Below, in pieces: positions 15,758 through 55,255 of a DNA stretch of 64,000 nt. The stretch comes from Heliocybe sulcata. Its lineage: Eukaryota > Basidiomycota > Agaricomycetes > Gloeophyllales > Gloeophyllaceae. How positions within the stretch are numbered: position 1 is the first letter of the stretch; each line of letters begins with the position of its first letter. Made by a program: the position numbers and the translations under genes. The stretch is taken from assembly GCA_004369045.1 (NCBI GenBank), contig ML213508.1, positions 199,928-263,927 on the forward strand, in the 5' to 3' direction. The notes beneath the pieces were generated by a model that did no database searches, had not been told where the DNA came from, and saw only the letters and a list, made by a program, of their open reading frames with translations.

Positions 15758-17101
15758 ATGAACCTATTTAACCCCCTCCGCCCGGCATTTCGCACAAGAC
15801 CACGCTTATGGCCTGCGCTCGCTCTCAAAGGACAGCGATTCACAGTCAGAAATTACCCTACGACACCTACATCGCAGGAAGTGGAGAATACGAATGTCAG
15901 CCATGCGAAGTTTATAGCGGAGGCGTCGCCATCGTCGAAATGGTCGCCCAAGGATGAGATCGGGAAGGGCGGCGGGACGCAGGCTACGGGAGAGGACTTT
16001 GATACCCTGGCCGAGGGCAAAGGTACGTCGCGCGATATGTACCCGGTGCGGAGGTCATGAGCGAGCAATGGTTGACATCAGGCAAACTTTCTCCAACGTC
16101 GTCGCATTTGTTCAAGCTTATCCTGCCTTTGGGGCAACTTGCATCGAAGTCGAATACAAAAACCCCACCACCACCAACCGTATTCCTTCTGCACCCCTCT
16201 CAGCCGCTCTCACACGCCGGCCGTCTGATAACTGCGTCTCTCGCACCTGCTACGACCGATGTTTCCTTCCGTAGCAAGTCGAACCAGGGGCAGATGTTTC
16301 AGTGGTCGGACGCAACGGACGTGAGCGACTTCATCCGAGACGCAGCGCGGGAGGCAGAGTTTGAGATTTGTATCAGCAAGAACCCTGGAGCATCGCCGTC
16401 CGAGGAGAGAGCAGGAGAAGAGACTGCGATTCGTGTGGAAGTGCCGACGTTTGCGGACCGGACGCGCTTCCTGAGGAGGCGGCTGGATGCAATCACGGCC
16501 GAGCTGGCGCGGATGGAGGGGCTCAAGAACGAGTGTGACCGGGAGGCGCATCGCGGCGCGAGGAGGGTGGCTGTCGGGGGATTTGCGATGCTGGTTGTGT
16601 ACTGGGGTGCGGTTGCGCGCCTTACGTTCTGGGACTACGGCTGGGATATTATGGAACCCATCACATATCTCTCCGGTTTGTCAACTGTTATCCTCGGTTA
16701 CCTCTGGTGCGCCTCCCCTCCCTTTGTCTGCTGACCCATCTCAACAGCCTCGTAGGTTCCTCTTCCAAGGCCGTGAAGTCTCCTACTCTTCCGTCCTCCA
16801 TCAGTCCATTTCCACACGGCGAGACGCCTTATACAAATCGAAAGGCTTCGACATCGACCGGTGGGTGGACCTGACGAATGAGGCGCGAGAGTTGAGGCGG
16901 GAGATTGGACGGATTGCGGAGGATTATGAGGACCGCAGGACTGCTAACTCGGAGGAGAAGAATGACGAGGAGGATGACGAGGATAAGGGGGAGAGGAGGA
17001 AAGCGCAGACGGAAGAAGAGGAGAGGACTAGCGAGCCGGTTGTGAGGATGACTGAGGAGGACGAGGGAGTGAGGGAGACTGACAAGAATAAAAAGGTGTA
17101 G
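15758..17101 (+). CDS. MCU: mitochondrial calcium uniporter, pore-forming subunit
   Basis: Three exons: 15758-16022, 16082-16706, 16756-17101 (411 residues). MCU forms the inner-membrane Ca2+ channel of mitochondria. The signature is clear: helix GGFAMLVVYWGAVARLTFW (about residues 254-272), the selectivity loop W-D-I-M-E-P (276-281, the DIME motif), then a second helix TYLSGLSTVILGYLWFLFQG. The N-terminus is basic and Ser-rich, as expected for an import sequence. A coiled coil precedes the first helix (RTRFLRRRLDAITAELARME). The C-terminus ends in a long Glu/Asp/Lys tail. Key pore residues are intact. No gene for EMRE or MICU is visible in the window. Confidence 0.92.
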
Positions 17102-27781: not shown

Positions 27782-29360
27782 TTACTCGTCCTTCTCAGAC
27801 TTGCCATCGTGTCTCCAACCATGCAGGTCTTTGATGTCGACTCTCTTCTCGGGAAGCGCATCCGCGACCTTGTCAGGACGCCATCTCCACAACTCACGCA
27901 GGTCTTCTGGAAGCGTTCCTTCAAGGCAATCGCAGACATATTTGCCGAGGACTAGGTCGAATACATCAGCTCAGTGTCGTCTAGAAGATCCACGGGCCAC
28001 CTACCTGGAAGATTCTTGAAAGCGTGGCCGGAACCTGCCGTCGCGATGTAAAGGGTAGATGGTGAGGAAGGACTGTTATCTACTCATTAGTACTCTGATC
28101 TGTTGACAACCAAGGCTGGACGTCCTGCGGCGATATTATGAACTGCATGTCTATCGACTCGGTGTCCCAGCACATGGCCGAATACACCACAGGGCGCTCT
28201 GCAAGTTCAGGCAGGCAAGCCCGGGCTATTCTTCTCACCAGATCTACACATTCTTCAGGTAGGGTATCGGTAGGATTCAGTGCTTTATCCCGAGGCACAG
28301 ATACGCGGCGACCGTCAACCGACGTGTAGTTCGTCAGTGTATAGGGGAGACCTGCGATCTTGTAGATCCCATCGGCAGTAGGAGGGAAGCAGAATCCGCT
28401 GCCTAAAGCATGCAACTATACAGCTACGTGAGAACTGGGAAGATGAATTCAGAGATGAGGCGAGCGTTACCACGGGTAACCTGGCGTATTTCTGGGTCTC
28501 CTCCTTGGTGAGCTGAATATGCGCGTATCCGTAGGACACGGTCACAAGCTGCCCTTCGAAGTCGAGCAGGCTTTCGCTCCACCCACCGGTGGCCAGAATA
28601 ATGCGGTCGGCGAGATGCTTAGTCCCATCCTCGGCTAGCACGCCAATCACGTTATTCGTCTGCCCGTCATGGATGAGCTCTTTCATAACTCCTGATGGTC
28701 CCGATACGAATTTGACGCCGCGTTTCGCGCAGTATTCGCCCAGGACTTGCATGGAGCGCATAGCCTCGACCCATCCTGCGTTACCTAAGGTTCCATAAGT
28801 CTCGGGCTGGACTGACTCCGTAAACGCGGAATGATTTACCATTGAATATCCCGCTCCATCCCTGCAGGTCGCCGGTCAGAAGGTCGCACTTCGCTTTGAT
28901 AGCATCCTCGTCTGGCAAATCCTCGATCTGGCTAACATCACCATAACGCCTCGTATTTTCGACGCTGCGCATAAACCATTCTCGTGAAGCCTCACCCAAG
29001 TGCGGAGGGTTCATATGGATCCATCCTGTCTGATGGAAGAGCTTTTCTGAAGCGAAGGGTTCCAGCTCGCGCCAGGCGTCCAGGGACTCGTGCGCGAGAC
29101 GCGTAAGGACTGGGCTGCCGTATTCCGTACGTGCGACCTGCAACGCGTAATGTGGTCAGATGACATGATAGTCGGACGCTGACGCAGAGCACCTTTGAAA
29201 GATCCCATCCCGCTGAGGACTTACTCGGAACCTCCCATCGGTCCATGCAGGTCGCATTGGTGTATCCTCGTTCGACCAGGTGAAAGGCTGTGGAGAGGCC
29301 AAAAGTACCAGCCCCGACAATCAGGATGCGAGCGTCCTTGTCAAGTGACGATGAAGCCAT
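27782..29360 (-). CDS. FAD-dependent amino-acid/amine oxidase (DAO family), copy 1, probably defective
   Basis: Six expected exons: 29193-29360, 28840-29137, 28471-28784, 28126-28415, 28005-28072, 27782-27951 (435 residues if spliced as in copy 2). The N-terminus has the FAD dinucleotide fold ILIVGAGTFGLSTAFHLVERG, then SSAGWDLSKVARTEYGSP. The middle has NAGWVEAMRSMQVLGEYCAK and ATGGWSESLLDFEGQ. The C-terminus has ATAGSGHAFKNLP, the last FAD contact. This layout is that of fructosyl-amino-acid, sarcosine and pipecolate oxidases. The donor of intron 4 reads CA|GGACGT where copy 2 has CA|GTACGT. Without that intron the frame meets a stop at 28080 and loses the C-terminal FAD contacts. It may be a decaying paralog. 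Confidence 0.8.
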
Positions 29361-29960: not shown

Positions 29961-31567
29961 TCATACCGCCTCCTTCTCCGATCTACCGTCATGCCTCCAA
30001 CCGTGCTGATCCTTGATGTCGACTCTGCTCAGCTGCGGTGCTCCCTCAACCTTGTCCGGACGCCATCTCCACGTCTTGCGCAAGTCTTCCGGCAGCCTTC
30101 CTTCGAGGCAATCGCACACGTATTTTCCAATCACTACACGAGGAGTTGTAAATATGCAGTCAATGCTTGTAACAATTCGACGTATACCTGGCAGATTCTT
30201 GAAAGAGTGACCGGAGCCTGCTGTTGCTATATACAGACTCGATGGCGAAGAAGGGCTGAATCCAAAGCTGAGTGTTAAGCTATCACAGGATTCGAACGAG
30301 ACGTACTGAGGAGACACTATCCAGTTGAAATCAATTGACTCGGTGTCCCAGCACATGGTCGAGTGGATGATGGGACGGTCGCCTAGCTCAGGCAGACACG
30401 CCTGTGCAATCTGCCTGCATTCTGCTATACCTTCTTCTGACAGAGTGTCCGTGGGATGCAGGGAGCGGTCTCTAGGAAAAGACACAAGCCGTCCGTTGAC
30501 GGACGTGTAGTTCGTCCGGGTATAAGTAAGGTTTGCAATCTTGAAAATTCCATCCGGGGTGGGAGGGAAGCAGTACCCTATATTCGGAGCGTGGAGCTTT
30601 GCGAAGCGACAATAAGGAGGGTTATGTATTGGAAAACACCAGTACACAGCAGACTTACGACCGGCATGGAAGAATACTTCTCAGTCTCCTCCTTGGTGAG
30701 TTGGATATGCGCGAATCCGTACGCTCCGCTGAACAGCTGTCCCTCGAAGTCTAGCAGGCTCTCGCTCCACGCACCAGTCGCGACGACTATGCACTTTGCG
30801 AGATGTTGGCTGCCGTCTTCTGCTTGAACGCCAAGAACAGCATTCGTCTGGGGGTCACGTATCAATTCCTTCATTACTCCGGATGGTCCGGATATGAATT
30901 TGACACCGTGCTCCGAGCAGTATGCGCCCAGGACTTCCATGGAGCGCTTAGCCTCGACCCATCCAGCATTGCCTATACACAGAATCACATACTTATCCAA
31001 GCAACTCAAGAAGCGCATGCCACAATACCGTTGAATACGCCTGTCCATCCTTTCAGGTCGCCCGTGATAAGGCCACATTTCGCCTTGATTGCCGTATCAT
31101 CTGCTAAATATTCGATCTGTGTACCATCACCGTATCGCCTGGTGTTCTCGAGACCAACTTCAAATCGATCCGCCGCAGTAGCGTCCAAATCGGGAGGTCG
31201 CATATGGAGCCATCCCGTCTGATGGAACAGATTGGCAGAGGCAAAGGGCTCTACGTCTCGCCATGCGTCGAGGGATTCGTGAGCGATACGGGTATAAAGG
31301 GGGTTGGCGTACTCGGTGCGAGCGATCTACAATTTGCGATTCGGTCAGATCGCTTAGTACTATAAGCAGGATACCACGCTTGAACCCTCGAAGAGTCACC
31401 TTAGAGATGTCCCAACCCGCGGATGACTTGCTGGGTACTGCCCATCGGTCCATACAAGTCACATCCTTGTATCCACGCTCGACCAGGTGGAAGGCTGTGG
31501 ACAGGCCAAAGGTACCGGCACCGACTATTAAGATCGACGCGTCTTTGTCGGCTGAGGTTGAAGTCAT
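29961..31567 (-). CDS. FAD-dependent amino-acid/amine oxidase (DAO family), copy 2
   Basis: Six exons: 31400-31567, 31029-31326, 30659-30972, 30307-30596, 30188-30267, 29961-30133 (440 residues). Domain order is as in copy 1: FAD fold ILIVGAGTFGLSTAFHLVERG at residues 11-31, DRWAVPSKSSAGWDISK, NAGWVEAKRSMEVLG, ATGAWSESLLDFEGQ, SMCWDT-like block, SPHFGF and ATAGSGHSFKNLP, ending HGWRHDGRSEKEAV. All junctions are canonical. Fructosyl-amino-acid oxidases carry a Cys that binds FAD covalently in a K-x-C context. Here the matching segment reads GIFKIANL with no Cys, so flavin may be non-covalent or the substrate may differ. No peroxisomal PTS1 is seen. It lies 361 bp downstream of 2OG oxygenase A, on the same strand. 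Confidence 0.87.
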
Positions 31568-41712: not shown

Positions 41713-44700
41713 CTACTGCAAGAAAGCCACGAAAAGATAAGCAAAGAAAGCGAAGAAGACCATGCCGACCGCAATCACTTGGGCACCAAAGTCAGTCATG
41801 AAGTCGTTGACTTCGAAGAGTGGATTCATCGGAGGCCTAAGGGAAACCGAGATGCGATGCTTAGCCCCAGGGTCGGTGTTGTCGGTAACGATGAACAGGG
41901 TCTGTCGGGACTCGTCGTAGACATATCTATCCTTGGAGTCCAAATCCTCCACGACGAGGTCTCTTCCCTGTACCAAGGAGGAGGGAACGTAAATCTCGGT
42001 TTCCCGCGCAGCGAGAATCGGATGGCCTCCGAGGGGCGGGGATGAAATAGATGGCTTCCCTGTGGCAGGGGCGGACGGATTGGGGTTGGCCCATTCGAAC
42101 GTGAAAGCGCCGGTGTTGATCTCGTACTCGAACTTCAGAGGGATTCCAGCTGTCTTTGCAGGGTAGGGCCGTACAATGGACTGAAGGATCCTACCGCCGT
42201 TGTCAAGAGTCGGCGATGTCTGCTCATAGTCGAGCAAAGAGGCCGGAAGAGCTCTGCTTCGGCTAAACCAGGAGAAATTTTCGCCGTTCCAGTCGTCGCC
42301 GAGTTGATCTGTGTTCGAAGGATTATAGTTCCAGAGGCTATGAAGGACGCTTCGGAAAAAGCGGAGAACATGACTCGATAGTGGACTTACGTGAATCCAA
42401 TCATACACCGCTCAAGGGCGGTCATCATCGCGTCCATCATCTTGAGCTGCCAGGACCAATTCTCGGTCTCGAAAGCCTCTCCTTTGCTGTTTCACAGCAT
42501 AGATTCAGTAATCTGATACCCTGATCGCCTTATCCTGGAGTATAATGACTCACTCCAAATCCATAGGAATGCCACATTCCCCGATCAGAACCGGCTTCTC
42601 GCCCAGAGATTTATACCCAGCTTCAATTATATTCTTGATTTGTACGAAGAAATTATCGCAGGCGCCCTTCTGCCCCCAGTAGAATGCCTTCAAGGGAAAC
42701 ATGCCCTAGAATAAGCAAGATCGTGAAATTGAGAAGGCGAAGGTGCTAGTACTGATGCTCGACCATACCCTTGACAACCCTTGCACGTTAACTGTGAAAT
42801 TGCCGAACGATTTGGTGAACAAGGCATTCAGATCATACCTAGGAAGTGTTCAGGTTCATCCTTACGAAGAAAATGAGAACGTCCCACCAATGCGGCGCAT
42901 ATACCATGTTGTCAGGTTGACATCCTGCAGTCCAGTTCGAGGGACAGAACTTCATGAAAGGAGTCAGACACCAGTACAGAAATAACATCCAAAATACCAT
43001 ACCTCGTTCGGAATAGGCTCGACAAACACGAGCTTGTCATTCCCCGTAAATCTCCGCACCCGCTCAGCCCACCTTTGAATAAACGGATAATAGAAATCCT
43101 GATACCAGTCAATCTATCAGCCCGTATTAGCAAGCCGTCATCACATTTGAGGAGATGCAAAAGTTGCCTTCTCGTTGGTCATCGGATGCTTCACGAAATA
43201 ATTCTCTCTCAAGACCACTCCTTCGTTCTTGTTTCTATCCCAGCCCCACACGCCATGCATTTCCCAAAGACACTTGCCTTCGGTGGGACCGTCCTCGCGC
43301 CATGCTTTCTTACCGTCTGGATTGAGCACGCCCTGACCTGTGAGGCGAGTGGGTATAGGCCATGAGCGCGTCCAGTGACCCACCGAGGTTGGGTGGCCGG
43401 CACCGAGCATGAAGGACTGGAAAGCAGTAGCTGCCCAACAGTTGGTAACTGACTGACGAAAAAAGCGAGGCAGACATACGGACGTAGGACAAATGAAGAT
43501 CGGTGTTGTAATCGAATTGATGCAGAGATGGAAGCTGCACATATCCTCTATGTGGTTCGTTCATTATCTACATAGAATGCATTAGAACAGATCGGCATAT
43601 TCAAGGTGCGAATTAGGACCTCGAAGCCCAGTACGCCTGGTAGGTCACCAACTGTCCTGGCCACGACTTCCCACATATTCAGGAATGCATTCTGTAGAAA
43701 CTGCTGGACCGAGGCTTCAGACCCGTCGCCACATTTGATCTTGGCCTTCGGCGCAAATGTATCGCCCGCCCAGAAGCAAGTACTGTTCCTTGTCAGTCGA
43801 CTCCTGGCTGCATGAGCAAGACCCACTTACGCCATGGTGGACGCGGCCAGTTTCTGATACCCACAGGGCCATATACCCCGCTCTACCTCGACGTGGCCGC
43901 CTCCCTTTACTCCAACCAGCCATGCCGCTCCAGTTTCCTCCAAGGACATCAAGTCAAATCCTACCACTTCGAGAGTCCATCCGGGAGCGCCGGAACCGCC
44001 GGAGTAACGCGACCATACGTCCTGGTGCATGGCAACGAATGCAGTCATGCCATAATTAGGTAGCAAGGATAAGACTTTGCGTATATATTCTAGATAGTCC
44101 GTGTCATAGATTCCGCTGTGGCGCGTCAGAGCGGACAATGACTACTGGTTCGGCGAACTCACGGTCCGGCATGTTCAACAGCCTCCCACGTCACAAGGAA
44201 ACGAACTAAGCGGAAGGCTTAGCACTGCAGCAGCGATGGCTACATTTCACGTACTAAATGTAAGGCCCCATCTACGGAGTCTAGACAGGTGTTCGTGCGC
44301 TTCTTCTAGAGGAAACGGCCGACCGACAAAAGTTACTGATGAAGTGTGTGCTGGAAAGAGGTCATGATCATCATTGACTGGGCTTCAACCAAGTCAGAAT
44401 CGCAGGGCAGTAAGACCGGTTTTGTCACGCACGTTTTGCTACTTCCCGACAAGTTGACGCCCCTCAGATTACAGACTCTTCCGTACGCGTCTATGAAATG
44501 ACGGCCATGAGGGTTTAAGACGCCGCCTGTTCCTTCTGCAGACCAATCGTGTGCATAACTCGAGGATGATCCAGGGCGGTAAGTTGCTTCTGCGGACGGA
44601 TGCACTTGGGGCTGGACATACTGTTCTCAACAATGGAAAGGCCACGTAGACGACGCAAGTACCTTGTGTTCCCCTGCTTTTGCTGCTGACTTAGTTAAAG

Positions 44701-45605: not shown

Positions 45606-46349
45606 ACTGCATCCTGGGATAGACAAGTGAGCTGCGGGAGCCATGCTCAAGAGATTCTGTGCCTACATGTGCTCGTTTGGATCCCTTCATACCTATGTTA
45701 TTCTCGTTGACTGTCACCTGGCGTACGAAGCTTCATGATCAAACTGAACCTCGCCGCATTCTTGAGTCACTTCACGCTGTTGAGTTCCGGCGTCGAATGT
45801 AACTGATATATGCAGGCGCAACACTGGCGCGCATCTCATATCTACGAGCATGGTGGGAGTTAATTACGCTCCTGGTCCCTATATATTGATCTGATTTAGC
45901 CTGTCCATGGCAAGTTAGGGAAGGGCCTCGTTTATTAGCCTGTATTCTGGTGCTGCAATGTATGCCTGCAAGCGCAGTACTTCATAAGAACATTTACCTA
46001 TTTGCGCGCTACGGTCTGCTGCCACATTAACGCCGCATAGGCCCCATGTTTCTATATGCTCTTGAACATTTTCCGATTTGCTCGCCCTGGGTATGACCGC
46101 AATAAGTGCGCTTCCTTGCCTCTCGGGGTCAGACCTACCTGGTGTTCGTGAAGACTACGCTGCTGAGGGTTGAGGGTCGAGGTGCGTTTCATTGATCATT
46201 CATGCTTCCAAATATTCGCTCTTGAACGTTTGAACTACAGTTTCGAATTTATCTGCAATGCTTTAACGGAGCATGCTTAGCGGAACCTAAGGAAACATTG
46301 AGAACCGATACGCCGACGATGGACGGCGGGCCGGGCCGGCAAGCCGGTT

Positions 46350-46390
46350 CTATTCCGATATATTGATAGCTACTTTCTTTATATATGGCT
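46350..46390 (+). promoter_or_regulatory. conserved proximal promoter with TATA box (AEC copy 1)
   Basis: A block running from CTATTCCGATATA to CTTTATATATGG, about 75-110 bp before the ATG, is kept almost unchanged at 54371-54412 before copy 2. TTTATATATGG is the likely TATA element. Confidence 0.6.
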
Positions 46391-46462
46391 CACGCAGAAG
46401 CTCTTTCGCCCCGCCCACGACAATCCAACCCGTAGGTCAAGCGCCCGCTACGTGCATTCGCC

Positions 46463-48526
46463 ATGGCGTCAGCTGCGTTCTTGATTTACAGCGGGTGCAT
46501 GCCGCTCATCAAAATGTGCGACGTGGTCGTGTCTCATTGCGATAGCCTAACTAACCGTGTCGAATTTAGGTTCTTGACTATCTTCTTTGGTTACATTCTT
46601 GCTCGCAAGGACCTATTCCCACCCGCAGCTTCAAGAGGAGCTTCGCAGGTAACCATGAACATCTCCCTGCCAGCATTGATATTCGCCAACATTGTCCCTG
46701 CCTTTACTCCGGCCAACGCAGCAGCTATTGGACCGCTTCTGCTGCTCGCTTACACGTACCAGATAATTGGTTTCATATTTGGTTACATCATACGTGAATT
46801 CTTCTATGTGCCCCGCAATTTCTGGCAAGGGATTGTGATCATGTGCGGCATGAGTAACTGGGGGAATCTCCGTCAGTGCCTTTCAAAAGTACATTCGAAG
46901 CGTCAGATGTTGACCTTAGACTCTGACAGCTAACTCCATCGTAACTAGTGTCACGACTCAAGCGCCCTTCGACCCGGATACAGACCCTCAGTGTACGTAC
47001 CCGCCTGACCTGGCTTACCTAGCCTGAACTAACCAAAGTCCCCACGACAGTAGGAGTATCCTTCGTATCTATATTCATCGTCTCGTATCACATCACTTTT
47101 TGGGTATTCGGGTGAGCGTAACCCTACAACCCCTTCGGTTTTTGGCTGAAGACGGACTCTCCGACATAGTGGTGCTCGATCTCTTAGCTGGGACTACCTG
47201 CCTGGTGTTCCTCAGAAAGAAGAAGCTGAGCGTCGCGTCTCTTGGAAAGAGAAACCTATCGGCGGCTGGATAGCCCGCACTTTCCTCGGCTACAAGCCAC
47301 CATCCCCAGCCTCGAGTCCGGAAAAGGCCAGGGAGAAAGACTCCACTCCCCCACCGGACGCAGCCGCACTTGAGAACGAAATAGCAGTAGAGGCGCGAGA
47401 GGCACCTGTATTCGAAAAGCACCCCAACGCGGACCCCGATATCCAGCTCGTCAGGCAGACTTCTCGTCTGTCAGCCACTTCCTTCCGCTCTAGACGGCCC
47501 TCAACCGGACAACCCCAACTCCCGTACTTCCGCGCTCAACCACAACCCTCCTACGCCCCCTCCCTCCCACCACCCGCCCCAGCCCCATCAATAGCATCTT
47601 CTCATACCGCCGCACCTGCAACTACCCCCAACTCCCGTTCCGTCTTCCCACCGCTGCTCGTCAAGATCTTCAAACCCGTATCCGCCATTATCACACCCGT
47701 CACTGCAACACTCGCAGTCTCCTTACCCATCGCACTCATCAACCCGCTGAAAGCCCTCTTCGTGCCCGTCTCGGGCGGTCCGTCCTGGACAGGCCCCGAC
47801 GGACGCCCGCCCCTCGCCTTCGTCATCGACACAGGTACGTTCTTCACTCTTCCCAACCCCATCCAAAGCTCTTAGTCGCATCCCTGGCGCCCCTGCCTCT
47901 CCCTCCCCAGCAACATTCCTCGGTTCCATAGCCATCCCCCTCGCCCTCATCCTCCTCGGCGCCTCCTTCGCCCGTCTCCGCATCCCCCGCCCCCTCTCCC
48001 GCCTCCCCATCATGGCCATGCTCGCCGTCTCCCTCGCCAAACTCTTCATCCTCCCCGTCCTCGGCGTCCTCATCGTCCAAGCCATGGTCCACGGCGGCCT
48101 CATCCCTCAAACCGCGCGCGCAGAGAAGTTCGTCGCGATGCTGCTCAGCGGGACGCCGGCAGCGGTGAAGTGCGTATCTCTCCCTTTCCGATATTGATGT
48201 CTGGTATGAAGGCGTATGTTGAAATGTGTATAGTCAGCTCATTGTTGCCTCCCTGTACGCGCCGGACGGTGACGTTGACACACTTTCGGTACGCCTTCCA
48301 GTCCGTCTTTCCCCGTGTGGTCTAACTCTATTGTACAGGCGTTCCTGCTAGTGCAATGTACGTTGCGGTATCTCACGGTGGACTATCCTATCTAATCGAC
48401 ATTTCTATTGTAGATGTCCTGATGTTCATATCCTCCGCGTAAGTCATCCTATCCAGCACAGGAAGGACTCCAAATATTCACGGCCCTCCCAGGGCCTTAA
48501 CTGCCGTTGCGTTACTCCTTTCTTGA
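46463..48526 (+). CDS. auxin efflux carrier (AEC/PIN-like) transporter, copy 1
   Basis: Ten exons: 46463-46515, 46570-46871, 46930-46992, 47051-47111, 47170-47834, 47911-48169, 48234-48288, 48339-48357, 48414-48438, 48493-48526 (511 residues). The N-terminal membrane half includes FFGYILARKDLFPPAASRGA, VTMNISLPALIFANIVPAF, IIREFFYVPRNFWQG and IVIMCGMSNWGNLP. A long hydrophilic loop of about 220 residues rich in Pro, Ser and Glu follows. The C-terminal half includes GSIAIPLALILLGASFARL, LAVSLAKLFILPVLGVLI and FVAMLLSGTPAAVNQLIVAS, ending in a short hydrophobic helix. The family exports weak organic acids; in fungi the substrate and membrane are mostly unknown. Exon 8 has 19 nt. Copy 2 lies convergently at 52269-54316. 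Confidence 0.9.
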
Positions 48527-48791
48527 ATCCTCTCTGTTTCCATCTAGAGACGTATACGCATGCATCGCCAAACTACCCCGGCGGTAGGTAAAGTTCCAGA
48601 AGCCACGCGCGTCAGACTTCATTGTCGCATCTAGACAAGACCTTCCAGCAAGCATGCTAAGGGGTGTGGTACGTATCATAAAAGTAACTTATTGTATCAC
48701 TATCGAACGCGTAATCATGAGAGGTCGTTACGTATCATCACATACAATATAGACACCAGTCGACTGCGCCACACTCCTACTCTACCCGGAA

Positions 48792-50931
48792 TTACTTGCC
48801 CAAGCTCAACCGAATCACATTCTGCAAAGTATAGCCATCGTCCTAGGCGATTGCCACGTTTATCAGCCACCTTCAGCATGGAGACAGACGATGCCTACCT
48901 GGTCAAGCGACCACGTGAAACACCCAGCCATACCCTGCTGATTCGCATACGTCGCCTTATCCGCGATAGAGTACGTATCATCGTATGTGATGACAGTCTG
49001 CCGCGACACATCGAAGAGGAACTACACCAAGATACTCTCAGTCGCCTTACATTCCAGGAAAAGAAAGTCGTACTTACCGGCGTATCACTGCAATTATCCC
49101 ACCCTACGCACCAAACAAGCCTGAATCAGCCAAGCCAAGTCCCCGTACCAGCAGAGCCACTCACCCTCAGTATATCCATTGGCGCCCACATACGTCCCGT
49201 TACTCTGCTTCTGCAAAGCGCCCAGCGCCACAATCTGGTTAAACGCCACCTGTTGCCCATAATACGCACTCAAATCCCCCGACGCTTTCGCCATGACATC
49301 CCCCGTCCTCTTCCCCTTATACCTCGCATGCTCCCCGCCCATATAATTCACAACCTCTGGAGTCGCATCCTTCCCGTCGTCGCCCACGTCCTTACCAACT
49401 ACCTCATTGATATCAGGTAGCCTGCACGCCATGGCCCTCTGCACCTCAATGCTGGGGGCCATCACGGCCTTTCCGGGACGCTTGTACGAGCCCGTCAGAT
49501 AGGTGGCCGTGCTCTTGGAGACATACCCGTAGAGCGGCAGGCCGAGCATGAGCTTGCTCGCAGGGAAGCCGGCGTTGGTCCAAGCAGAGAAGGCAGCCTC
49601 GGCAGAGGCCTGGGGCTGCGACGAGGTCCCGCAGAGGTTGCCCAGGGGAGCGTTAGGACCTGGCGTCGAAGAGGCTCCATTGACGTCATAGTTCCTGAAG
49701 CCTATAAACCCAAAATGCCAACGGCGAGTTGCGAGCAGGAAACTCACATGATGTTCGCATAGGTCATGACCGAGGCGTAGGCGCTGACGTTCGTCAAAGG
49801 GCTTCCGTTCGACCCCAGCCAAGGCTGTTGAGTCACGGCGGCCGAAATGATCTTGGACGATCCCAGGGCCGAACGGAGCTGCTGGAAGAAACTCAGCAGG
49901 TGTGCCGCGTCCGAGGACGAATACGGGTTGCCAGCGCCGGATTCGTTGGGATATTCCTGTCCTCCGCAATTTAGCATGGACCACAAGAATCGCTATAGTA
50001 TCCTTACCCAATCAATATCAATTCCTATAGATGAGGTATATAAGAGCCATCTGGCACAGTGGAAGTCGTAACATACCAGCCAACCCGTAGGTATTCACGG
50101 CGCTCACAGCAGCATTGACAAACGTGGTTCTGTTCGAAGACGAACTCATCGCGTTATGGAACCAGTAGCTCCCGCCCCAGCCTCCAATAGACAAGACCAC
50201 TTGGGTACCATGGCCACTGTTGTTGGCTGCGGTGACCAGACGCTGTAGGAGGGACGTCGCGCCACTGTCCCAAGAGATAGTCGACGAGGAGTTGGGAGTC
50301 GCAAAAGCTACCAGAGCGCCATCAGACGGCGTCTATAAGAGCAGAAAGATCCTACCGAACAACAGTATGTCGAACTTGGAGAAATCCAAGTTCTCCGGTG
50401 GATTACTGTCTCCCACCCAGTCGGGGTAGTAAGCAGCAGCCACCTTGGTCGCCTTGGCATCAATCTCTCCCAGCATCGTCAACGCAGCTTTCCTGGACAA
50501 AGTCGATGGGAGCGCGTCTTCGAGGTCGAAGGCTCTTATAGTCCCAGCGCCCGCGGCTGACAGGAAGTGCAGCAACGCCGGTTCAGATCGGAAGGCGTCG
50601 TCCGCCAGCAGACTTCTTAGGTAGCTTGACAGGCCCGATTTGCGCTCGGCAATGAGGTCATCGTCGACCCAGGCAGACGGGATAAATGTCGTGACGAGCA
50701 GACGCTTCGGTGGCAGGCCGTACGAGTCGCCCAGTTGGCTCTGTAAAGCTGCGAACTGTCGCGATCTTTCAATCCAGGCCGATGCTCGTGTGCGTTTCTA
50801 CATACCTCTGAAAACCTTTTGGCAACCTGGTAACTGCGTTGACCGTCATTTACGTCGACGATATAAAGGACATGAGGGCGAGGCGCGGAAGCGGTGGTGT
50901 GGCGGGTGATATTCACAGTGAGGGGAGCCAT
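48792..50931 (-). CDS. PX domain fused to a GH18 chitinase
   Basis: Nine exons: 50806-50931, 50356-50755, 50077-50307, 50008-50024, 49748-49956, 49149-49694, 49078-49087, 48899-49021, 48792-48821 (563 residues). Residues 18-108 are a PX (phosphoinositide-binding) domain: HVLYIVDVNDGQRSYQVAKR, then FSEFAALQSQLG, LPPKRLL, and DDLIAERKSGLSSYLRSLL with LLHFLS. After a linker of about 35 residues the GH18 barrel begins at about 146 (VAAAYYPDWVGD, DFSKFDILLFAFAT). It continues with VVLSIGGWGGSYWF and the catalytic D-x-D-x-E in GIDIDWEYPNE (about 253-261). Then come YANIMNYDVNGA, LMLGLPLYGY, CCDTPFLFD and MAGCFTWSLDQ. One uninterrupted exon (50356-50755) spans the PX end and the chitinase start. There is no signal peptide. 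An intracellular, membrane-targeted chitin- or glycan-acting enzyme is inference. Confidence 0.88.
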
Positions 50932-52139
50932 GTGAAGGAGAGCAAGCTAATTGCCCTTTTATTGATCATAGAGCAGATACGAGGTTGCTCAGGCCTGCCG
51001 AGACGTCATCGCGGTAGCTATCACCTTGTTCTGCTGGATGTCCATGGAAACCCGCAAATAGCTTGCGCACAAAGTCAGCCGGTTGAACGCTGTGTGAGCA
51101 TTTGAGAGATATGATCATAAGGAAGTTTCCTAAGAACGAAACGCGGCTTCTTTCGCGTTGCGGAGCATCTTGAGATACGACACGTGGGAGCAGAGTCTGA
51201 TGGCGCGTCTGGAGGAGAACAATCATCGATGGAATGCCACAGCTCCTGCGGCGAACCGAAAGGCTGGTCTCAAGGTATCGATAGAATCTAAAAGCGAGCA
51301 CGAGCGATATGCCGCCGGCATCACGTTCAGTGATGAACAGGAGGTGTTCGCCATCTTCGCAGAGCGCTTCTGAAGAAAGGAGCTTGACAGAACACTGAGT
51401 AGAAAGTGCTCAATGTGGTTTGGTGCTCCCTGCAATATGGGCCTACCATCGGCTCGAACAACTGTGGTCAGCTATGGAGGACATTCTAAGGCAGGGGAGA
51501 CGGTCGTGGCTGCCGGGCAGACTGGCTCCGTGACTTGCCTCGTATGATCTCGGCCTCATTCTGGACGAGAATGCCTCTTACGGAACATGCAGACAACGTA
51601 GTTGGAGCGTCTGTAGCTGGACGTAGCGTCGAGGCGACAGTAGTAACTGAGAACGCTTGGACGAAAGAGATACCCAGGAAATTTATGCAATTCCCTTGCT
51701 TGGAAGTAGCCATGAGACCCCGGACTCTGCAGCTTACAGTCGAGGGTGTTCTCTGAATGAGTTTTAAAAAAAGGTACTCAAAACATATAACTCACCAAAT
51801 TAGATGACATATTTATCTTGTAGCAGAGTTGTTGCCAGGCCCAAGCGTACGAGAGGCTAGCAGGAGAAATTGGGAGCAGTTGCAGAGGCAACAATCAGAG
51901 GACGCTTGCGACCGAGGAAAAGGAACTCAGGCCTCAAGACCTCATGGCCAGCTGTGCAGCTATTCAAAATCCGTCTTCGGGATCGACTCCCTTTCCCCAA
52001 AGGAGAATTCTCCCAGCAGTGATTTTCTTTCCTGAATTTTCCCTCACTTTCGCAGGATGCTGCTCACCGGAAGCGACACCTATATGGCTCACACCACAGA
52101 TGTTCGATAGTAGAGCAATCACTTGCTTTTATGACACAT
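50932..52139. other. about 1.2 kb spacer without recognised genes
   Basis: Right part of the spacer of the inverted duplication, upstream of the PX-GH18 gene. Short frames only; an A-rich run near 51765. Confidence 0.4.
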
Positions 52140-52268
52140 AGTATGACCCTTAGCATGCTTGCTGGAAGGCCGTATTATGGTGCAGTCACGGCATCTGACG
52201 CGCCTGGCTTCTGGCATTTTATCTGCCGAGACCGGGGTCGTTAGGTGACGCATAGAACAGGAGAGGAT

Positions 52269-54316
52269 TCAAGAGAGGAGTAGTGCGACGGCCGTCAGAG
52301 CGCTGGAAGAACAGTAAACGATTATAGAATTCATTGTAGTGGATGGGATGACTTACGAGGAGGAGAGGAACATTAAGACATCTGCGATTATAAATATCAA
52401 TTAGTTACGATGGACAGCTGTGAGAGACAGAGATGTACATTGCACTAGCAGGAATGCCTAAACAGCCGAGTTAGACCGGGAGAGGAAAGCAGATAAAAGG
52501 CATACCGAAAGTGTGTCAACGTCACCGTCCGTTGCGTACAGGGAGGCAGCGATGAGCTGGCTGTATAACGTTCAGCAAACGCCTTCATAACACATAGCAT
52601 CATCGGTAGGAAAAAGAGACGCACTTCACCGCGGCTGGCGTCCCGCTGAGCAGCATCGCGACGAACTTCTCTGCCCGTGCGGTTTGGGGGATGAGGCCGC
52701 CGTGGATCATGGCTTGGACAATGAGGACGCCCAAGACCGGGAGGATGAAGAGTTTGAAGAGCGAGACGGCAAGCATCGCGCGGAGGGGGAGGCGAGAGAG
52801 CGGCCTGAGAATGTGGAGGCGGGCAAAGGAGGCACCGAGGAGGATGAGGGCCAGGGGGATGATTATGGAGCCAAGGAAGGTGGCTAGAGTGAGGTGGAGG
52901 GGGACAGGGGATGTTATGGCAGAACTCAAGATACTTGCTATTGGTTCACGTACCTGTGTCAATGACGAAAGCGAGGGGCGGTCGTCCATCGGGCCCTGCC
53001 CAGGATGGACCGCCCATAACGGGCACGAAGAGGGCTTTCAGCGGGTTGATAAGCGCGATGGGTAGGGAGACCGCGAGTATCGCTGTGACGGGCGTCATGA
53101 TGACGGAGATGGCGTTGAAGATCTTGACGAGAAGCGGCAGGGACAGAGAGCGGATAACGGAGGTCGTCTCAGGCGCAGCAGTGTGAGAAGAGGCTATTAT
53201 TGATGGTGCTGGGACGGGTGCTGGGAGGGACGGCGAGTAAGAAGGTTGTGGTTGAGTGTGGAAGGAAGGGAGTTCGGGTTGTCTGGCTGAGCGCTGTGGC
53301 AAAGTTGAGAAAAGGGCAGTCTGTCTGGCGAGCTGGATATCAGGATCGGCGTTGGCGTGCTTTTCAAATACATGCGCTTCTCGTGCCTCAACTTCTATAC
53401 CATTCTCAAGTGCCGCTGCGTCAAATGGAAGGCTCGAGTCTTTCTCCTCGTTGGGCTTTTCTGGGGTGGAGGCCGGGGATGATGGCTCATAGCCGAGGTA
53501 GGCGCGGGCTATCCAACCGCCGATAGGTTTCTCTTTCCAGGAGACGCGACGCTCGGCTTCTTCTTTCTGAGGAACGCCAGGTAAATAGTCCCAGCTCAAA
53601 GATCGAGCACCGCTACAACAGGGAATTGCTCTCAATCAGAGACCGCATGCAGCGTAGGATCAAGCTCACCCGAATACCCAGAAAGTAAGGTGATATGAGA
53701 GAATGAATATGGACACAAAGGACACTCCTACTGTGATCGCGAGTTTCGTTAGTCTAGGCCAGGTAAGCAGGTCGCTCGAGTACTAACACTCTGGGTCAGT
53801 ATCTGGGTCGAAGGGCGCCTGAGTCGTGATACTGGTCACGATTGAGTTCGCTGTCGGGTCTAATATCAGCAGCTGACGCTTTGAATGTACGATACAAAGC
53901 GACTGACGGAGACTTCCCCAGTTGCTCATGCCGCACATGATCACGATCCCTTGCCAAAAATTGCGCGGCACATAGAACAACTCGCGTACGATGTAGCCAA
54001 ATATGAAACCAATTATTTGGTACGTGTAGGCGAGCAGGAAAAGGGGTCCAATAGCTGCTGCGTTGGCCGGGGTGAAGGCAGGAACAATGTTGGCGAATAT
54101 CAGCGCTGGCAGGGAGACATTCATGGCTACCTGCGATGCTCCTCTTGAAGCTGCGGGAGGGAATAAGCCCTTGCGAGCAAGGAGGTAGCCGAAGAAGATG
54201 GTGAAGAGCCTAAAGTCGACAGGTTTAGTTAGACTATCGCAATAAGACACGATCACGTCCCACATTTTGACGAGCGGCATACACCCGCTGTAAATCAAGA
54301 ACGCGGCTGATGCCAT
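52269..54316 (-). CDS. auxin efflux carrier (AEC/PIN-like) transporter, copy 2
   Basis: Ten exons matching copy 1 one for one: 54264-54316, 53908-54209, 53788-53850, 53670-53730, 52954-53612, 52625-52883, 52506-52560, 52439-52457, 52357-52381, 52269-52302 (509 residues). Start MASAAFLIYSGCMPLVKM; membrane blocks FFGYLLARKGLFPPAASRGA, VAMNVSLPALIFANIVPAF, VRELFYVPRNFWQG, GSIIIPLALILLGASFARL and LAVSLFKLFILPVLGVLI, then FVAMLLSGTPAAVNQLIAAS. The central loop differs most from copy 1 and is two residues shorter. All splice ends are canonical and no stop interrupts the frame, so both copies appear functional. The retained TATA-containing promoter block suggests shared regulation. Confidence 0.9.
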
Positions 54317-54370
54317 AGCGAGTTGCACGGAGTGGCTGGACCTGTCGTGGATCTAAGGGGCTTCTGGGCA

Positions 54371-54412
54371 AGCCATATATAAAGAAACTAGCTTTCAGTA
54401 TATCGGAATAGC
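54371..54412 (-). promoter_or_regulatory. conserved proximal promoter with TATA box (AEC copy 2)
   Basis: Inverted counterpart of 46350-46390; minus strand reads CTATTCCGATATA through CTTTATATATGG about 55-95 bp before the ATG. Confidence 0.6.
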
Positions 54413-55255
54413 GCTGGCTTCTGCTTGCACACGTGGATCCAGACGTCGTCAGCTGCATCTATCCTCAAGATGTGATACTTTATGAGAGACGTCATAGGTG
54501 TTTCAATAGCTACCTTGCAATCCATTAAACTACTGCGGAGCCATCCGAGAGCTGCGCTGTACGGAAAGAGTGAACATTCAGAGAGACAAATAATCAATGG
54601 AACGTACCTCAGCAGCGTGGTCTTTACGAACAGTAGTCAGGTCTGACCCTGAGACACGGAGAAGCACGCTCATTACGACCATCCAGTGCGAGCTTATCAG
54701 AGTGTCAAACAGTGAACAGGAACTTGGGGTTGATGCGGCGTTAATCAGGGCATAGGACGTAAATCGGCCAGTGTTCTTATGAAGTACTGCGCGTGCATAT
54801 ACCAGCGACATTAATATCGAAGTTTGTAATAATCCAAGAGCGTAGCGTGGCGAATTTCATCATTCGAGTCGCTGAGGGTGATATGGGTATAAACGATTCC
54901 CCGTGAGCAGATGTATGCGCATAATCTCCTAGAAATGGCTCTCACATTCACTCTTCTATCCGAGGATGCAGTAAAGCCGACCGGTTGAACCGTATGGATG
55001 ACTGGCTTCTCGAGTGATCTGGTGTAATGCTAGTTGCAGGCGGCCCCCGGAATATAATCCTCTGGCGCGAATATGCACCGACGTTTCTCGTTAGTCCCAG
55101 CAAGTCATGTTGCACCGACAGACTCTGTCGATGGCTGCCTTGGCTCTCGAGCGCGAGTTTGGTCTTGCATTTGGACAGAGGAGCACAACGAGGTTTTGGA
55201 AGCGGCGCCGAAACCCTGCCAGAATACTGCGCGGACATATGAGAGCTTAAACATT

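Follow-up and report, generated by a model that had tools for sequence, protein, structure and literature searches.

PX-domain chitinases have been reported from the white-rot fungus Ganoderma boninense, and a PX-chitinase of another white-rot fungus, Phanerochaete chrysosporium (Karlsson et al. 2016), was expressed and found to be chitinolytically inactive, as cited in the available text of PMC8097845. Glyco_hydro_18 also appears among the PX-associated domains in an excerpted list of 2010, which does not name the species (PMC2837644, section 8). In the portions accessible, a paper covering 373 fungal genomes describes multi-GH18, LysM and chitin-binding architectures and no others (PMC8042737), PMC2614207 contains nothing about PX, and PX is likewise not mentioned in three further papers citing Karlsson et al. 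2016. A gene of Heliocybe sulcata that joins a PX domain to a GH18 barrel had been put forward, in the original prediction, as an architecture for which no enzyme was described. The reports above contradict this: since the architecture is already known (PMC8097845, PMC2837644), the H. sulcata gene is, by architecture, a further member. PX-chitinases of this kind are reported from more than one genus, and a cytosolic-side role of such a lipid-targeted chitinase-like protein is unstated in the available parts of the literature consulted.

In Ustilago maydis, the PX-SNARE Yup1 is termed Vam7-like (PMC8689521, in part) and its PX domain a PI3P binder (PMC12167484, in part). According to the available sections of PMC5415202, the isolated Yup1 PX domain marks endosomes and vacuoles. 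Endosomal and phosphoinositide factors also matter for export of the chitinase Cts1 from the same fungus, as far as the accessible text of three papers goes (PMC12167484, PMC5415202, PMC6386918).

The window analysed here is a stretch of 64,000 nucleotides (C6:199928-263927) of a 31.6 Mb H. sulcata assembly in 51 contigs (G000), and was identical, base for base, to assembly stretch L045 across 9,901 bases. The PX-GH18 gene was rebuilt as a spliced model (Table 1). Its introns are all GT-AG and 48-61 nt in length, and the nine exons read through without a stop, giving a coding length of 1,713 nt including the stop codon. The coordinates, strand and exon 2 span given originally agree with this model, although the length of 563 residues does not, as the rebuilt protein has 570. 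The two Pfam families expected in the protein were both found: PX (PF00787) at residues 30-108 (E 3.9e-10; 40.6 bits versus a curated cut-off of 21.6; profile positions 5-82 of 84) and GH18 (PF00704) at residues 149-555 (E 1.5e-53; 182.9 bits versus a cut-off of 29.6; profile positions 3-317 of 317). An unspliced search of the assembly returned PX at the same place (E 2.1e-5) and pieces of GH18 at the same locus.

Table 1. The PX-GH18 gene and its parts, in window coordinates. Junction coordinates were counted from the start of exon 2, taken as residue 43.
Feature	Position	Strand	Basis
PX-GH18 gene, whole, 570 aa, nine exons	48792..50931	-	spliced model; Pfam PX and GH18
Exon 1: start codon and initial PX strands up to ...KRFSE	50806..50931	-	spliced model
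Exon 2: remaining PX, linker, GH18 strand 1	50356..50755	-	spliced model, Pfam, per-frame codon score
Exon 2 junction: codons 109-148, gap between PX and GH18 in Pfam	50438..50557	-	Pfam ends 108/149
Exon 3: GH18, SxGG, Ala252	50077..50307	-	spliced model, motif alignment
Exon 4 (17 nt): active-site D-I-D-W	50008..50024	-	spliced model, motif alignment
Exon 5: from catalytic Glu259 on	49748..49956	-	spliced model, motif check
Exon 6: MxYD (Met codon split by intron) and mid-barrel	49165..49694	-	spliced model, motif check
Exon 7 (26 nt)	49078..49103	-	spliced model
Exon 8: carries Trp550	48899..49021	-	spliced model, motif check
Exon 9 and stop codon	48792..48842	-	spliced model

That PX and GH18 are encoded by one spliced gene, as predicted from the DNA, is confirmed: both domains score above their curated cut-offs within a spliced open frame, and the fusion proposed for this locus is real. 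Exon 2 is a single open frame that holds the end of PX, a linker of 40 residues and the start of the barrel. Codon log-odds, for which the training set comprised 744 codons only, reached +12.2 in the coding frame of exon 2, compared with -80.3 and -59.3 in the other sense frames; the antisense frames scored -53.0, -33.0 and +1.6, the last of which carries 3 stops. Across the junction itself (codons 109-145, 37 codons) the coding frame scored +1.5 versus -18.6 and -16.5 for the other sense frames, in keeping with the uninterrupted run from PX into the barrel that had been described. Two ordinary genes would be a poor fit, because 40 codons seem too short a stretch to accommodate the stop and terminator of one gene along with the promoter and signal peptide of the next. 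When the exon 2 product was compared with bacterial and archaeal contigs (97 pattern stretches) and viral contigs (15), none was confirmed as a relative, which says little given that the collections are bacterial, archaeal and viral.

The nearest PX domain in the same genome lies at C1:2206237 (33% identity, E 9.9e-10 in the genome search; 36 of 110 columns identical, E 1e-14, in a one-sequence comparison). It belongs to an open frame of 371 aa, in which PX is combined with a match to the SNARE chain of syntaxin 8 at the C-terminus (E 9.3e-8); this end also matches the SNARE chain of SNAP29. No SNARE family is among the Pfam matches of the protein. Judging from these matches, we call it Vam7/Yup1-like. 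A recent copy of this gene as the source of the PX part is ruled out by the 33% identity and also by exon layout, since exon 1 of the fusion ends inside PX and the PX of the VAM7-like gene is one open frame. Among solved structures, PX matches were weak (E 0.0017 and above), apart from a designed CISK-PX.

Four pocket positions, R39, F40, K59 and R80, are present in the fusion and align with those of the VAM7-like PX. By numbering, we take these to correspond to the residues that contact PI3P in p40phox and SNX3. Eight of the 11 other PX places in the genome were included in the pocket alignment, and R-[YF], K and R were each found in 7 of these 8, with L006 devoid of all three. As the pocket positions are kept, and as the PX of Yup1 marks endosomes and vacuoles by itself, binding of PI3P by the PX-GH18 protein is likely. 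The cytosolic site on endomembranes that had been suggested for the protein is plausible on the same pocket evidence.

The best sequence match to the barrel among solved structures is 5xwf, a chitinase of Rhizomucor miehei. The D-x-D-x-E motif (residues 255-259) is complete, and the presence of D255, D257 and E259 implies that the enzyme may work; SxGG at 215, MxYD at 328 and Trp550 are also in place. The full D-x-x-D-x-D-x-E is broken, as its initial Asp is replaced by Ala252. This position is Asp in all five readable paralogues from the same genome (L039-L043, the motif of L043 being read as intron-split; a sixth, L044, has lost the stretch). An intact catalytic motif, as originally noted, thus holds for the triad and fails for the longer motif, and it is weakened further by the inactivity cited for the Phanerochaete relative. 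Given the conservation of the Asp and this inactive relative, our guess is that hydrolase activity may be reduced. The active-site mutants in the available text of PMC7334433 affect positions of D-x-D-x-E, and the accessible parts of the literature consulted on GH18 mutants contained no measured effect of the exact Asp-to-Ala252 change. Ala252 provides a simple handle on whether PX-chitinases are enzymes or sugar-binding proteins.

The protein had also been described as having no signal peptide, and none is visible, as assessed solely by peak ten-residue hydropathy: neither the N-terminus (0.87) nor Met134 (0.52) is signal-like. The starts of the paralogues L040 and L041 are signal-like (peaks of 2.89 and 2.38), the comparison being confined to these two, with the starts of L039, L042 and L043 left unread. 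By eye, L044 (G000:C5:614200-618500) closely resembles a truncated L040 gene: it retains the signal-like exon 1 and the C-terminal end, the middle being absent. The GH18 part of the fusion contains 8 N-glycosylation sequons where shuffled sequences average 4.6 (a count of 8 is reached in 126 of 2000 shuffles), which hints weakly at a secreted ancestor or at continued secretion.

We suggest, with a probability of about 0.6, that the gene encodes a cytosolic PX-chitinase-like protein, which would be docked on PI3P by its Vam7/Yup1-like PX and whose barrel would bind chitin-type sugars with weak cleavage or none. With no visible signal peptide, it is expected to be cytosolic, and PX would dock it through PI3P onto the cytosolic side of early endosomes and vacuoles. 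Here, the barrel might bind chitin-type oligosaccharides and have weak hydrolase activity or none, or might act after uptake into the vacuole; alternatively, the docked protein might leave the cell by an unconventional route, as is the case for Cts1. Ala252 and the inactive relative favour a docked protein with a weak or inactive barrel, and a barrel of this kind, or one acting in the vacuole, appears more likely than a strong wall chitinase.

Export deserves separate consideration, although we regard it as unlikely. In this case the protein would be an active chitinase that is exported without a signal peptide, PI3P endosomes, to which PX attaches it, would bring it to septa or the tip, and one chain would do the job of the separate anchor proteins that serve the signal peptide-less Cts1. 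The fusion has its D-x-D-x-E and no visible signal peptide, and the U. maydis literature, as far as its text was available, offers several parallels. Cts1 is a chitinase that is exported unconventionally (PMC6386918, PMC7358432); Jps1, which binds PI(4,5)P2 (PMC12167484), is essential for this export; the secondary septum cannot be made without Don1, which is endosomal via a FYVE domain (PMC6386918); and less Cts1 is exported when Did2, which regulates ESCRT on endosomes, is lost (PMC5415202). However, endosomal shuttling of Cts1 itself was not observed, which the accessible part of PMC6386918 states as unpublished, and both Ala252 and the inactivity cited for the Phanerochaete protein argue against a working chitinase. 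If PX does deliver the protein by endosomes, phosphoinositide trafficking would be linked to wall or chitin turnover.

It is less probable still that the gene also yields a second, secreted form of GH18, through splicing of an alternative, signal peptide-encoding first exon into exon 2 downstream of PX. Exon 2 does contain a YAG acceptor with first base 50492, and three upstream ORFs reach peaks of 2.33, 2.09 and 2.04, near the 2.38 of the L041 start. The ORF from 52156 has phase-matching donors, but would require an intron of ~1.6 kb, compared with 48-61 nt elsewhere in the gene. No donor of the pattern searched for occurs in the ORF at 52334, and that at 51713 has only a donor phased to acceptors inside PX. 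This check, run on five ORFs with donors taken as GTRNG and acceptors as YAG, found only an unlikely candidate for such an exon.

Similarly improbable is a cytosolic glycan hydrolase beside endosomes or vacuoles, acting on free chito-oligosaccharides or, in the manner of an ENGase, on misfolded glycoproteins. The barrel motifs and the want of a visible signal peptide would suit such an enzyme, whereas the best solved-structure match is to a fungal chitinase (5xwf).

Elsewhere in the window, Pfam indicates a piece of a mitochondrial calcium uniporter (MCU) gene at 16003-16734, two adjoining and similar-looking pieces of FAD-dependent oxidoreductase (DAO) at 28315-28875 and 30578-31096, the first at the Pfam cut-off and the second just below it, and, on the minus strand at 41713-42411, Glyco_hydro_5_C, the C-terminal domain of a GH5 enzyme. 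Closer to the PX-GH18 gene, a repeat search found flanking inverted arms at 45967-48708 and 52102-54797, which are two copies of a membrane transport gene. With 75.9% identity across 2,791 aligned columns, the arms form an imperfect inverted duplication. Mem_trans is matched by the right copy (E 2.2e-12) and by one piece of the left (E 0.013, below the Pfam cut-off). Three ORFs chosen between the PX-GH18 gene and the right arm had no Pfam match even with E allowed up to 1. On the evidence of one genome, the rearrangement is no more than a possible origin of the fusion. A functionless fusion, arisen by chance or in decay, which the single source assembly, the lost Asp and the inverted transporter copies might suggest, is very improbable in view of the 1,713 nt that remain open through nine exons, the near-complete PX and GH18 domains in Pfam, the strong divergence from relatives in the same genome (PX 33%; GH18 pieces at most 60%) and the same architecture in other genera, as reported in the text available.

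In its combination of PX and chitinase in one fungal protein, the fusion resembles the PX-chitinases of G. boninense and P. chrysosporium, as far as their description goes. With the H. sulcata paralogues L039, L040 and L041 it shares a GH18 barrel with D-x-D-x-E, but these three keep the first Asp of D-x-x-D-x-D-x-E in place of Ala252, and L040 and L041 have a signal-like start and no PX, the reverse of the fusion. The barrel of 5xwf from R. miehei has N-x-D-x-E where the fusion has D-x-D-x-E. The Vam7/Yup1 PX-SNAREs have, like the fusion, an N-terminal PX with the same pocket positions (33% identity for the one in the same genome), and differ in ending in a SNARE motif rather than a GH18 barrel. 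Cts1 of U. maydis is, like the fusion, a chitinase without a predicted signal peptide. Extracellular activity is reported for Cts1 in the text available; the same sources mention no PX on Cts1, for which another protein, Jps1, provides the phosphoinositide-binding anchor. By analogy, and with considerable doubt, one chain in H. sulcata may join the anchor and chitinase that are kept apart in U. maydis as Jps1 and Cts1, and PX-chitinases may represent endosome-borne, unconventional delivery of a chitinase or chitin lectin in other basidiomycetes.
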